NCBI RefSeq assembly: GCF_016820245.1
Contig: NZ_JAFCAR010000005.1
Location: 496,001-560,000, forward strand
Length of the DNA stretch: 64,000 nucleotides
Source: Jannaschia sp. Os4
GTDB taxonomy: Bacteria; Pseudomonadota; Alphaproteobacteria; Rhodobacterales; Rhodobacteraceae
Reading direction: 5' to 3'
The notes beneath the pieces are model-generated. The model was given only the letters and a program-made list of their open reading frames with translations. It was not told the DNA's origin and made no database searches. The position numbers and the translations under genes were made by a program. Shown here in pieces: positions 24,756-30,130 of the stretch; within the stretch, counting starts at the first letter, position 1; the number at the start of each line of letters is the position of its first letter.

Positions 24756-26318
24756 ATGAAGGACACCGACGACACCCCCCGCCGCCGCCGCGCGGGCGGA
24801 CGCCGCGGCCACGCCGAACGGGCGGGCACCGCCGTGCACGAGCAGATGCCGTGGTCCCAGCCCCGCAACCCCGACCGCCCGGCCGAGCCGCTGGACGCCG
24901 ACGGCGTGCAGGCGATCCATGCGGGCGTGGTCCGCATCCTGCAGGAGATCGGGATTGAGTTCCTGAACCCCGAGGCCTGCGACGTGCTGCGCCGCGCGGG
25001 ATGCCGGGTGGAGGGGACCAACGTCCGCATGGACGAGGACTTCCTGATGGCGCAGCTCGCCCATTGCCCGGCGGAGTTCACGATCACGCCGCGCAACCCC
25101 GAGCGCGCCCTGCGGATCGGCGGGAACTGGATGGCCTTCGGCAACGTGTCGAGCCCGCCCAACTACTGGGACGTCCACACGCCCAAGCAATCCGGCTCGA
25201 TGGAGCGCTACGTCGACCTCATCAAGCTGACGCAGCACTTCAACTGCATCCACTTCGCGGGCGGCTACCCGGTCGAGCCGATCGACGTCCACGCCTCCGT
25301 CCGCCACCTCGACTGCCTGTTCGAGAAGCTGACGCTGACCGACAAGGTCGTGCATGCCTACTCGCTGGGCCGCGAGCGGGTGGAGGACGTGATGGAGATG
25401 ACCCGCATCGCGGGCGGCCTCACGCGGGAGGAGTTCGACTCCGAGCCGCACATGTACACCAACATCAACTCCGTCTCGCCGCTCAAGCACGACTTCCCGA
25501 TGCTGGAGGGCGCGATGATCCACGCCCGCCGCAACCAGCCGGTGATCGTGACGCCCTTCACGCTGGCCGGCGCGATGGCGCCCGTCACCATGTCGGGCGC
25601 CGTCACGCTCTCGCTGGCCGAGGGGCTGGCCGCCATCGCGCTGCTGCAATGCGTGAACCCCGGCGCGCCGGTGGTCATCGGGACGTTCACCTCCAACGTC
25701 GACATGAAGTCCGGCGCCCCCGCCTTCGGCACGCCCGAGTACATGCGCGCCACCCAGATGACCGGCCAGATGGCGCGGTTCTACGGCCTGCCGGTCCGCT
25801 CCTCGGGCGTGTGCGCGGCCAACGTGCCGGACGGGCAGGCGATGTGGGAGACCGGCCACTCGCTCTGGGCCGCCGTGCAGTCGGGGACCAACGTCGTCTA
25901 CCACGCGGCGGGCTGGCTGGAGGGCGGGCTGATCGCGAGCCCCGAGAAGTTCGTCATGGACTGCGAGGTGATCCAGCAGATCCAGCGCTACTTCGAGCCC
26001 GCGACATGGGCCACGACGCCGGACGACATCGCCATCGACGCGATCCGCGACGTCGGGCCGGACGGCCACTACTTCGGCACGCAGCACACCCAGGAGCGGT
26101 ACCAGACGGCCTTCTACCAGCCGTTCGTGTCGGACTGGCGCAACTGGGAGGCGTGGGACGCGGCGGGCGGCGTCTGGACCGCCGAGCGGGCCTACGCCCT
26201 GTCGCGCCGCATCCTCGAGGCCTTCGAGCCGCCCGCGATGGACGCGGCCGTCCGCGAGGAGCTGGCCGCCTTCGTCGCCAAGCGCAAGGAGGAGGGCGGG
26301 GCACCGACCGACTTTTAG
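24756..26318 (+). CDS. MttB-family (trimethylamine methyltransferase-like) protein without pyrrolysine
   Basis: 520 residues, about the size of MttB/MtgB. After a basic N-terminus (PRRRRAGGRRGHAERAG) the family text includes LQEIGIEFLNPEACDVLRRAGCRVEG, FGNVSSPPNYWDV, HYHT-region replacement and LEGAMIHARRNQPVIVTPF. No in-frame amber codon is present, so it belongs to the non-Pyl members, whose characterised example demethylates glycine betaine to a corrinoid protein. No corrinoid protein or reactivase gene is adjacent. A GAGGGAGG site precedes the ATG. It may be co-transcribed with the H-NOX-like gene 64 bases downstream. Confidence 0.88.
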   Translation: MKDTDDTPRRRRAGGRRGHAERAGTAVHEQMPWSQPRNPDRPAEPLDADGVQAIHAGVVRILQEIGIEFLNPEACDVLRRAGCRVEGTNVRMDEDFLMAQLAHCPAEFTITPRNPERALRIGGNWMAFGNVSSPPNYWDVHTPKQSGSMERYVDLIKLTQHFNCIHFAGGYPVEPIDVHASVRHLDCLFEKLTLTDKVVHAYSLGRERVEDVMEMTRIAGGLTREEFDSEPHMYTNINSVSPLKHDFPMLEGAMIHARRNQPVIVTPFTLAGAMAPVTMSGAVTLSLAEGLAAIALLQCVNPGAPVVIGTFTSNVDMKSGAPAFGTPEYMRATQMTGQMARFYGLPVRSSGVCAANVPDGQAMWETGHSLWAAVQSGTNVVYHAAGWLEGGLIASPEKFVMDCEVIQQIQRYFEPATWATTPDDIAIDAIRDVGPDGHYFGTQHTQERYQTAFYQPFVSDWRNWEAWDAAGGVWTAERAYALSRRILEAFEPPAMDAAVREELAAFVAKRKEEGGAPTDF

Positions 26319-26382: not shown

Positions 26383-26979
26383 ATGCACGGCACCATCCTC
26401 AAGACCGCCGAGGGGTACCTCCGCGCCACCCGCGGGGCCGACGGCTGGGCCGCGATCGCCGCGGCGGCCAACCTCCCGCCCGACGGCATCATCGCCATGC
26501 GGCCCTATCCGGACCGGGTGATGACCGCGCTCCTCGCGGCGGCGGCCTCCCATACCGGCCGCGCGCCCTCCGACCTCCTGGAGGACATGGGGACGTGGCT
26601 CTGCACCGACCCCGCGAACGAGGCGGTGCGCCGCCTCTTCCGCTTCACCGGCCCGACCTTCCCCGACCTCCTCTACTCGCTCGACGACGTGCCCGAGCGC
26701 GCGCGCATGGCCGTGCCCGACCTCGACCTGCCCGAACTCTCCTTGGTCGAGCAGGGGGAGGGGCGCTACCGCGTCGCGTCGACTTGGCCGCTCAAGGGGG
26801 CGGGATCGGTCATCGTCGGCGTGCTGCGCGCCTTGGCGGACGACTACGGCGCCCTCGCGGTCGTCGCCCACGAGGGGCGGCGCGAGGCGCGGGGCTTCTG
26901 GGTCGAGATGCTCTCGATCCGCCTGCTCGACGAGGGATTCCAAGACCCGAAGGGCTTCGCACTGGGAGGTGCTGCATGA
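26383..26979 (+). CDS. H-NOX (HNOB) domain-like protein lacking the proximal heme histidine
   Basis: 198 residues spanning one H-NOX domain: MHGTILKTAEGYLRATRGAD, the LLEDMGTWLC helix, AVRRLFRFTGPTFPDLLYSL then DDVPERARMAVPDLDLPEL, and GVLRALADDYGALAVVAHEG. In heme-binding H-NOX the proximal ligand is a His in the helix that here reads SLDDVPERAR; the position holds Pro104. The only histidines are at 2, 57 and 163. The Y-x-S-x-R motif that contacts heme propionates reads V131-A-S133-T-W135. Heme-based NO/O2 sensing is therefore unlikely. Its stop overlaps the next gene (ATGA), which carries the partner HNOBA domain. Confidence 0.82.
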   Translation: MHGTILKTAEGYLRATRGADGWAAIAAAANLPPDGIIAMRPYPDRVMTALLAAAASHTGRAPSDLLEDMGTWLCTDPANEAVRRLFRFTGPTFPDLLYSLDDVPERARMAVPDLDLPELSLVEQGEGRYRVASTWPLKGAGSVIVGVLRALADDYGALAVVAHEGRREARGFWVEMLSIRLLDEGFQDPKGFALGGAA

Positions 26980-27905
26980 GCATGATGGGGTTGCGGCTCG
27001 GCCGCGCGGGCGCGGACCGGCTGATGCCGATGCACCTCGTCCTCGACGAGGAGGGCGACGTGCTCCACGCCGGGCCCGCCCTCGAGAAGATCGCGGGGCG
27101 ATCCCTCGCCAAGCGCCCGATGGAGGAGGTGCTGCGCTTCTGTCGCCCCTACGCGGCCTCCACGCCCGACTCCTTCGCGCCGCTTGCGGGTCGCGCCCTG
27201 CAGGTGGAGCTGCTGGGCGCGGGCGAGGGGCGGCGCCCGGTCCCGCTGCGCGCGGTGCTGGTGACCCTGCCGCAGGGCGGCGCCCTGCTGCACCTGTCGC
27301 CGGGCGTGCGCCTCGCCCGCACGGTGCGCGACCACGGCCTCGACGCGACCGACTTCTCGCCCGTCGACCCGTCCGTCGAGCTGCTCTTCATGTGCGAGGC
27401 GCAGGCCCTCGTCCGCGGCGAGCTGGAGCGGCTCGCCACCGGGGGCACGCGCGCGTCCGACTGGACCTCGCGCAAGCCCGCCGCGCCCGGGGAGGCGTCC
27501 GCCATCGCCGCCGCGCTCACGGGGGCGATGGACTCCACCGCCTTCGGGTTCGTGCGCATCTCCACCGCCGAGCCGGGCGCCCAGACGCGGGAGCGGCTGC
27601 GCGAGATGGCCGCCCGCAGCCTCCGGGACCGGGACACGATCCTTGACACGCCCGATGGGCTGCTCCTCGTCGTCGCCGACGGCGAGGACGGCGCCGTCGC
27701 CACCGTCGCCGCCCGCCTCCGGGGCAGGCTGCACCGCCTCGCCGAGGACGGCCTGCTGTCGCAGGTGGAGGTCGCGGCATGGGGCGCCGCGCGCTGCGAC
27801 GAGGAGGAGGAGGGCGACCTCCCCGCCGCCGCGCCCGACGGCTACGCCTACGGCGCGCGCGCCGCGTCCCTGCCGCGCGCGGGATCCGCAGCGGTCGGCG
27901 GGTAG
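26976..27905 (+). CDS. HNOBA (heme-NO-binding-associated) protein with degenerate GGDEF domain
   Basis: 309 residues. The HNOBA (PAS-like) domain is at about 15-135: MPMHLVLDEEGDVLHAGPAL, GGALLHLSPGVRLARTVRDH, then GLDATDFSPVDPSVELLFMCEAQ leading into a short signalling helix (about 133-155). The rest aligns by eye to a GGDEF domain: LTGAMDSTAFGFVRI recalls D-x-LTGLxNR, and TILDTPDGLLLVVADGE sits where R-x-GGDEF should be. The catalytic GG(D/E)EF is gone, so cyclic-di-GMP synthesis is not expected. Translationally coupled to the H-NOX-like gene. Confidence 0.8.
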   Translation: MSMMGLRLGRAGADRLMPMHLVLDEEGDVLHAGPALEKIAGRSLAKRPMEEVLRFCRPYAASTPDSFAPLAGRALQVELLGAGEGRRPVPLRAVLVTLPQGGALLHLSPGVRLARTVRDHGLDATDFSPVDPSVELLFMCEAQALVRGELERLATGGTRASDWTSRKPAAPGEASAIAAALTGAMDSTAFGFVRISTAEPGAQTRERLREMAARSLRDRDTILDTPDGLLLVVADGEDGAVATVAARLRGRLHRLAEDGLLSQVEVAAWGAARCDEEEEGDLPAAAPDGYAYGARAASLPRAGSAAVGG

Positions 27906-28236
27906 GGCGGATTGCCTACGGGTCGGATGACGATGCCCCGCCCCCCGATCCATCCACGCCGGACCGCAGGCGATGGCCGGGGCGTTCGGCGTTCCGAGGC
28001 GCGAGGTGCAGGCGACCGTCCCGTCGTGGACCTAGGGGACGGGCTTCCGCCGGATGCGGGCCCTGTCTCCAATCATCCCGAACGATCACGGACCGCGGCG
28101 GCGTCGGGTCCATCGCGGTGGCGACGCGTCCCGGACGGGGTGCCGACGCACGGACGCAAGGTCCGCCCGCCCCTCGGCAGCGTCCCCTGCGAGGGGGAAC
28201 CGGCGTGCCGCAAGCACCTGTCTCTGCTGTGGAAGA
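27906..28236. other. Gene-free stretch of about 330 bases before tRNA-Glu
   Basis: No frame here has both a plausible start and family-like protein text. There is no clear T-run terminator, although CGGGAC/GTCCCG-type short dyads occur. It separates the HNOBA gene (+) from the converging tRNA-Glu (-). I see nothing specific in it. Confidence 0.5.
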
Positions 28237-28311
28237 TGGTACCCCGTAGGGGAATCGAACCCCTCTTTCCAGGTTGAAAACCTGGCGTCCTAACCGATAG
28301 ACGAACGGGGC
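28237..28311 (-). tRNA. tRNA-Glu (anticodon TTC), CCA encoded
   Basis: The minus strand folds to a full cloverleaf. Acceptor GCCCCGT/ACGGGGT has a 1-72 G-U. The D arm is GTC...GAC, the anticodon stem CCAGG/CCTGG with loop TTTTCAA (anticodon TTC), and the T arm AGGGG-TTCGATT-CCCCT. The discriminator is A and the 3' CCA is encoded (28239-28237). It lies downstream of recJ on the same strand but has its own promoter. Confidence 0.97.
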
Positions 28312-28326
28312 CCGCCGGTGAGGCGC

Positions 28327-28355
28327 TCTCTAGGGCAGGGGGCCAGAGGCCGCAA
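28327..28355 (-). promoter_or_regulatory. tRNA-Glu promoter
   Basis: On the minus strand: -35 TTGCGG (28355-28350), 17-base spacer, -10 TAGAGA (28332-28327). Transcription would start about nine bases before the mature tRNA 5' end. A GC-rich stretch lies between the -10 box and the tRNA. Confidence 0.65.
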
Positions 28356-28384
28356 CCGGTTTTTTACCCCCCGGCCGCACCCCG

Positions 28385-30130
28385 TCAGGCGGCCCCGTCG
28401 CCCGGCAGGGCGACGTCCTCGACGCTGACCTGGACGGTCTCGCGCCCCTGCCACCGGTTGATCTCCAGCCGACCGGCGACGTGGAGCGGCGCCCCCGCCG
28501 CCCGCTCCACCATCGCGGCGATCCCGTTGCCCCCGGCGCGGAACGCGATCCCCTCCAGCCGCGCCGCGCCGTCCGTCAGGTCCAGCTTCAGGTGCCCGTC
28601 CCCGACGGCGCGGTGATGACGGACCCGCAGGGCCGGGAAGGCGAAGCGCGGCGCGGAGGCGCCCTGCCCGAACGGCCCCGCCGCCTGCAGGGCCGCCACG
28701 AGGTCGCGGGTCGCCGCCCGGGGCATCAGCGTCGCGTCGACCGCCAGCGCGGGACCGTCCGACGGCCCCTGCCGCGCGACGAGCGCCTCGAGCCGCGCCA
28801 TCGCCGCCCCCACGCCCGCGACGGGGACCGACAGGCCCGCCGCCATCCTGTGGCCCCCACCCTTCGCCAAGAGCCCCTCGGCCGCGAGACGCTGCACCGC
28901 AGCACCGATGTCGACGCCCGCCACCGACCGCGCCGACCCCGTCGCCATGCCCTCGGTGCCGAGGCCGATCACGACGGACGGCTTGCCGGTCCGCTCCTTC
29001 ATCCGGGACGCGACGATGCCGACGACGCCGGGGTGCCAGCCCTCGCCCGCGGCCCAAGCCAGCGGACCCTCCCGCGCCTCCGCCTGCGCCAGCGCCTCCT
29101 CGGTGATCCGCGCCTCCATCGCGCGCCGCTCCCGGTTCAGGCCGTCGAGCCGTGCCGCCAGCGCCGCCGCCTCGGACGCGTCCGCGGTCGAGAGCAGCCG
29201 GGCCCCGAGGTCGCTCGCCCCGATGCGCCCGCCCGCGTTGATGCGCGGCCCCAAGAGGTAGCCGAGGTGGTAGGCCGACGGAGGCCCGTCCATCCGCGCC
29301 ACGTCCGCCAGCGCGACCAGCCCCGGCCGCGCCCGCCGCCCCAGCACCTGCAGCCCCGCGCGCACCAGCGCCCGGTTCACCCCCACCAACGGCGCCACGT
29401 CCGCGACCGTCGCCAAGGCAACGAGGTCCAGCATCGCCATCGGATCCGGCCCCGCCATGCCGTCGTCGCGCAGCCGCCGGTTGGCTTGCACGAGGCAGAG
29501 GAACACCACGGCGGCGGCACAGAGATGCGCGTGCTCGCCGCCCTCGTCGACGCGGCACGGGTTCACCACGGCGTGGACGTCCGGCAGCGTCTCCTGCCCG
29601 AGATGGTGGTCCAGCACGATCACGTCCGCGCCCGCGGCGGCGGCCAGCGCCTCGTGGGCGACGGTCCCGCAGTCGACGCAGAGGATCAGGTCGTGCGCGG
29701 AAGCCAGCCCGGCCATCGCGGGCGCGTTGGGGCCGTATCCCTCCGACAGCCGGTCGGGCACGTAGAGCGTGGCCTCCCGCCCGAAGTGCCGCAGCCACCA
29801 GATCAGAAGCGCGGCCGAGGCGCCGCCGTCCACGTCATAGTCGGCGAACACCGCGATCCGCTCGCGCCGGGTCACCGCCGCCACCAGCCGGGCCGCGGCG
29901 CGGTCCATGTCGAGGAAGGTGGTCGGGTCGGGCAGCAGGTCGCGCAGCTTCGGATCGAGGAAGCCCGCGGCCCCCTCCGCCGTCACGCCACGCCGGGCGA
30001 GGTGGCGGGCGAGCACATGGGGATGGCCGCCTTGCGCGATCGCCTCGGCCAGCCGCTCCTGCGCGGGGTCCAGCCCCACCCACGCCCGGCCCGTGGCCGA
30101 GCGCGTCACCCCGAGATACGCGTCCCCCAT
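28385..30130 (-). CDS. recJ: Single-stranded-DNA-specific exonuclease RecJ
   Basis: 581 residues, a 5'-3' ssDNA exonuclease for recombination and mismatch repair. DHH-family motifs: IAVFADYDVDGGASAALLIW (motif I), CVDCGTVAHEAL, IVLDHHLGQETLPDVHAVVNP (motif III DHH), then DHHA1 with GGHRMAAGLSV-like GGGHRMAAG and a C-terminal OB fold. It is the last protein gene of the hom-AKR-glpX-recJ series, 40 bases after glpX. Confidence 0.95.
   Translation of the reverse strand: MGDAYLGVTRSATGRAWVGLDPAQERLAEAIAQGGHPHVLARHLARRGVTAEGAAGFLDPKLRDLLPDPTTFLDMDRAAARLVAAVTRRERIAVFADYDVDGGASAALLIWWLRHFGREATLYVPDRLSEGYGPNAPAMAGLASAHDLILCVDCGTVAHEALAAAAGADVIVLDHHLGQETLPDVHAVVNPCRVDEGGEHAHLCAAAVVFLCLVQANRRLRDDGMAGPDPMAMLDLVALATVADVAPLVGVNRALVRAGLQVLGRRARPGLVALADVARMDGPPSAYHLGYLLGPRINAGGRIGASDLGARLLSTADASEAAALAARLDGLNRERRAMEARITEEALAQAEAREGPLAWAAGEGWHPGVVGIVASRMKERTGKPSVVIGLGTEGMATGSARSVAGVDIGAAVQRLAAEGLLAKGGGHRMAAGLSVPVAGVGAAMARLEALVARQGPSDGPALAVDATLMPRAATRDLVAALQAAGPFGQGASAPRFAFPALRVRHHRAVGDGHLKLDLTDGAARLEGIAFRAGGNGIAAMVERAAGAPLHVAGRLEINRWQGRETVQVSVEDVALPGDGAA

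Follow-up and report, generated by a model that had tools for sequence, protein, structure and literature searches.

Group 5 of the H-NOX proteins has been described as a "very large" group in a network seeded with the Paracoccus denitrificans protein (Lee-Lopez and Yukl 2022, PMC8738867). According to the Group 5 description in this review, the proximal histidine is found in less than 10% of the members and is mostly replaced by proline, there is no conserved cysteine, and the signal that is sensed is given as an open question. Both the P. denitrificans protein and its R. sphaeroides counterpart are without the axial histidine, according to Kumar and Spiro (2017, PMC5588039). The H-NOX gene of P. 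denitrificans (Pden_3719, Group 5) overlaps a GGDEF gene; an hnoX mutant was partly biofilm-deficient, whereas a dgcAB mutant over-produced biofilm (PMC5588039). NO still acted on the biofilm in both mutants, and the same authors also propose a route for NO through H-NOX. In a 2025 paper (PMC12582929), deletion of hnox was tied to metabolism and quorum sensing, with c-di-GMP below detection. The H-NOX of Dinoroseobacter shibae has been listed among the heme-based NO sensors, as an inhibitor of Dgc1 (PMC8846402; PMC7232146), and this protein may be a member of the Group 5 clade.

Signalling that requires no heme, or no activation by NO, is reported for the H-NOX redox switches of Vibrio cholerae and Caulobacter (PMC7108781, PMC12329717). 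These have kept the proximal histidine and use a zinc site with three cysteines, whereas the protein studied here has one cysteine. The heme-binding H-NOX proteins (Nostoc Alr2278, 2o09; those of Shewanella and Thermoanaerobacter; the beta-1 subunit of soluble guanylate cyclase) differ from it by the presence of the proximal histidine and the Y-x-S-x-R motif. On the side of the output domain, degenerate GGDEF proteins of the PopA and PelD type act as c-di-GMP receptors.

Here we analyse an H-NOX gene of Jannaschia sp. Os4 and its partner gene, located in a stretch of 64,000 nucleotides (the window; contig NZ_JAFCAR010000005.1, positions 496,001 to 560,000). The loss of the histidine in Group 5 H-NOX proteins is already in print; the present locus is distinguished by an HNOBA partner whose GGDEF domain is lost, next to conserved H-NOX and HNOBA domains.

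Results and Discussion

The H-NOX protein lacks the proximal histidine

The features of the locus are collected in Table 1. The H-NOX protein is full-length and, in the predicted model, has a complete H-NOX fold, which agrees with its initial annotation as H-NOX-like. In the alignment to H-NOX proteins the place of the proximal, iron-ligating histidine is taken by Pro104, as had been claimed, and the propionate motif is indeed lost: in the aligned register residues 133–137 read S-x-W-x-L instead of Y-x-S-x-R. His57 and His163 were considered as replacement ligands and rejected on the basis of the alignment and the predicted fold. A frame artefact as the origin of the missing histidine was rejected in view of the open reading frame and the orthologues throughout the genus. 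The protein retains P117, G70 and G146; we take P117, by its position, to be the heme-distorting proline and the two glycines to be those of the hinge. The roles of these residues in H-NOX proteins are treated in PMC7108781.

Table 1. Features of the H-NOX locus, in window positions.
Feature	Position	Strand	Remark
MttB-type methyltransferase homologue, upstream of H-NOX	24756..26318	+	Pfam MTTB 711 bits
Predicted H-NOX-fold protein, 198 aa, Group 5 type by clade placement	26383..26979	+	orthologue in 20/20 genus genomes
His2 of the H-NOX	26386..26388	+	
Cys74, sole cysteine of the H-NOX	26602..26604	+	20/20 in genus, 1/168 distinct sequences outside
Pro104 codon (CCC), column of the proximal heme histidine	26692..26694	+	
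S133-T-W135-P-L137, in place of Y-x-S-x-R of heme H-NOX proteins	26779..26793	+	
Partner protein, 309 aa, overlaps the H-NOX stop by 4 nt	26976..27905	+	
HNOBA (H-NOXA/PAS-like) domain of partner, residues 1 to about 150	26976..27425	+	
Degenerate, truncated GGDEF-like region of partner, residues about 172–272, without catalytic motif	27489..27791	+	
R-D-R-D, five residues ahead of the GGDEF place; would match the RxxD inhibitory (I-) site	27624..27635	+	
P-D-G-L-L in place of G-G-D-E-F	27651..27665	+	
tRNA-Glu(ttc), between the H-NOX/HNOBA pair and recJ	28237..28311	-	
recJ	28385..30130	-	

The ligand residue in the clade and in the genus

Relatives were collected from 394 genomes of the family Rhodobacteraceae, 296 of which gave an HNOB match. 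The genus profile matched 287 genomes, and these matches include some ordinary His-bearing H-NOX proteins (e.g. in G023, G313 and G378). The 207 loci above 100 bits yielded 188 distinct sequences; hits below 100 bits were left out, and L001, L132, L133, L162–L169 and L189 were removed before the count. At the proximal position of the 188 sequences we found P (118), H (22), R (9), G (9), A (7), E (6), S (6), Q (5), D (3), N (2) and T (1). With one sequence per genus the histidine was present in 10 out of 107; this set combines 28 loci with 79 regions picked from the higher-scoring rows of the 287 matching genomes, and distant members are under-sampled in it. The profile also aligned 19 ordinary H-NOX sequences with low scores, and the histidine is present in every one of them. 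The initial annotation had presented the loss as an oddity of this gene, whereas a His-less H-NOX is the usual and published state of the clade; Group 5 H-NOX proteins are common in the sampled family.

The propionate triad is missing throughout: at most one of its three residues is present in any of the 188 sequences, the His-bearing ones included. Pro117 and Gly146 are invariant (188/188) and Gly70 is nearly so (187/188), and R83 (187/188), R84 and R87 (188/188 each) form a signature of the clade. By the clade placement of these sequences the window protein is of the Group 5 type; the set is separate from the P. denitrificans protein, and the network of the review was taken as published. No cysteine is found among the clade-wide conserved columns, as described for Group 5 in PMC8738867, but the genus of the window differs in that Cys74 is present in all of its members.

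Within the genus (20 genomes) the orthologues align without gaps, and the ligand residue is H (8 genomes), R (4), E (3), P or D (2 each) or Q (1). The genus thus offers a ready natural series for heme titration. At least 14 changes between the His and non-His states were counted on the tree, irrespective of direction. The dN/dS values were 0.05–0.29 in 36 close pairs of the clade with a His-less member. These come from the 40 closest of the 98 pairs with more than 72% identity, of which two gave no value and two were His-His pairs; values with dS above 1 are unreliable. Selection for something besides ordinary heme/NO sensing, as suggested in the initial annotation, is therefore reasonable for the clade; for the lineage of the window itself the suggestion carries less far, as its closest relative in the set has 54% identity.

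E67, D68, R83, R84, R87 and R149 are near-invariant in the clade (186–188 of 188); the Nostoc protein has Gly and Glu at the positions of R83 and R84, respectively. These residues could possibly form buried ion pairs or an anion site in place of the lost heme chemistry. Position 2 is His in 183 of the 188 relatives, Tyr in the Nostoc protein, and Lys, Tyr or Leu in ordinary H-NOX proteins of the family.

To relate the histidine to NO production, its occurrence was compared with that of the nitrite reductase NirK in a search that covered 80 of 127 genomes. In the genus, four of the eight His-bearing genomes and two of the twelve His-less ones had a match over the cut-off (Fisher p 0.16). The corresponding figures for the other genomes were 1 of 10 and 6 of 50, and neither comparison showed an association. 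The genome of the window contains a 41-bit match only, which is below the cut-off.

The partner protein has lost its GGDEF motif

The HNOBA domain of the partner scored 139.8 bits against the genus profile and gave a fold match to 2p04_A, with a Pfam match under the cut-off. For the region that follows, neither Pfam nor the profile gave a GGDEF match. In 187 of the 188 loci a GGDEF (diguanylate cyclase) ORF begins no more than 60 nt from the H-NOX stop (with a 4-nt overlap in 134), and the window is the sole exception. The coupling to an HNOBA partner, as initially annotated, is a conserved property of the locus; the annotation was incomplete in that the partner of the relatives carries a GGDEF domain, which is gone here. 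No such case is given in the Group 5 section of PMC8738867. Likewise, no GGDEF-less partner of an H-NOX of this clade was described in the literature searched on H-NOX histidine loss, HNOB/HNOBA, Dinoroseobacter, Rhodobacteraceae and Jannaschia, a search that left most subscription papers outside.

We considered and rejected the possibility that a different frame conceals the GGDEF domain or that it has been split off downstream. In a tblastn search of the 19 relatives against window positions 26900–28400, the matches in other frames had E-values of 1e-4 or weaker. They were G+C-rich stretches, either antisense or from the tail, and none was a good match to the GGDEF domain. The main alignments of five of the 19 relatives (L005, L011, L016, L020 and L021) extend in frame into the C-terminal part of the partner, which fits erosion in place. 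A C-terminus borrowed from another gene was rejected, as its best match elsewhere in the 20 genomes of the genus (its own included) had an E-value of 0.004. A match of the partner to HTH_63 (15.1 bits, cut-off 23.9) was taken as chance. When shuffled partner C-termini were scored with the profile, 753 of 1000 shuffles received a score.

In the other partners of the genus the GGDEF motif is preceded at a spacing of five residues by RxxD (19 of 19). The same arrangement is seen in 106 of the 108 remaining partner rows, counted with duplicates. The RDRD of the window partner stands at this canonical I-site spacing; the MAFFT alignment gives another register, so that its assignment is ambiguous.

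Possible roles of the H-NOX/HNOBA pair

We propose, as the probable explanation, that a Group 5 H-NOX regulates its HNOBA-GGDEF partner without a His-ligated heme, and that the pair in this species is a non-enzymatic signalling or scaffold module without c-di-GMP synthesis. In this group the H-NOX fold is maintained, along with the hinge glycines and the proline that faces the heme, but the heme ligand is mostly missing from its members, and we infer that they act on the adjoining HNOBA-GGDEF cyclase as protein regulators for which a His-ligated heme is unneeded. The H-NOX would then either be constitutively in a "NO-on"-like state that inhibits the cyclase or be switched by a signal that does not involve heme. 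Such an H-NOX, held in or switched to the inhibiting state by a cause other than heme-bound NO, fits the retention of the hinge residues and the genetics of P. denitrificans. A different cofactor or ligand, among the options named in the initial annotation, is conceivable. The H103G variant of the Shewanella H-NOX reportedly mimics the activated state. The structure of this variant has been solved (2kil, according to the entry title). A further step was taken in the species of the window, where the cyclase domain has eroded to a truncated GGDEF-like region. As the catalytic motif of the partner is lost, the pair should work without making c-di-GMP. If it continues to function, it would do so as a protein-protein module, for instance as a scaffold, a decoy subunit or a c-di-GMP-responsive pseudo-cyclase.

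As the main alternative, the locus might simply be decaying in this species, the H-NOX and HNOBA domains being passengers that have not yet been broken after loss of the cyclase; we regard this as unlikely, although it would account for the unique absence of a coupled GGDEF ORF. Relaxed selection would also be consistent with the mean identity of both remaining domains, which is the lowest in the genus (0.444 for H-NOX, others 0.447–0.519; 0.365 for HNOBA, others 0.369–0.443), and the near-invariant H-NOX positions Ile36, Ile37, Asp76 and Ala78 are altered. However, the GGDEF domain has gone past profile recognition, with 13 of 57 genus-invariant residues left, while 25 of the 26 such residues remain in H-NOX and 7 of the 8 in HNOBA, which is within the range of the other 19 members (0.86–1.00 and 0.88–1.00, respectively). 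In these 19 members GGDEF is the best conserved domain (mean identity 0.60, compared to 0.48 for H-NOX and 0.40 for HNOBA). The best-conserved domain has thus been eroded and the two less conserved ones have been held, which argues for continued use over plain decay. Moreover, both frames are open, with a GC3 of 0.94–0.97 including the eroded part, and the 4-nt overlap is intact.

In principle, binding of heme does not require this histidine and may use another residue. It is nevertheless improbable that heme is still bound and NO sensed through a different ligation, for example by His2 from helix A or by a ligand supplied by the partner. His2 is the only one of the three histidines of the window protein that lies in a column conserved at 93% or more, yet two orthologues of the genus have Tyr or Leu at this position, and no sequence of the clade offers more than one propionate residue. 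For the homologous system of D. shibae, dependence on heme and NO is listed (PMC8846402, PMC7232146), whereas the P. denitrificans biofilm responds to NO also without hnoX (PMC5588039).

A specific form of the non-enzymatic module, which we put forward as speculation and consider doubtful, is that the pair has turned from sensor and enzyme into receptor and scaffold, with an H-NOX devoid of His-ligated heme and an I-site pseudo-cyclase that reads c-di-GMP and no longer makes it. The partner resembles the PopA- and PelD-type receptors in the loss of the catalytic motif and in the possible RxxD I-site at canonical spacing; it differs from them in being too eroded for recognition by a GGDEF profile, and binding of c-di-GMP is putative. 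Should this hold, the H-NOX pair would have exchanged its chemistry at the input as well as at the output, with the protein-protein switch kept.

The locus is a natural case that separates the two roles, as the cyclase is lost and H-NOX and HNOBA are conserved. Any phenotype that the pair may still confer on this species cannot arise through c-di-GMP synthesis by its partner.

Genomic neighbourhood

MTTB is named among the neighbour families of H-NOX groups in the legend to Figure 6 of PMC8738867, the group being unspecified in the text. Of the 80 best-scoring loci, out of at least 500, 47 have an MttB homologue on the same strand in the flank (up to 5 kb), but only one of the six Jannaschia loci among them does. 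Within a flank of 1.5 kb an MttB homologue is present at 5 of the 20 loci of the genus.
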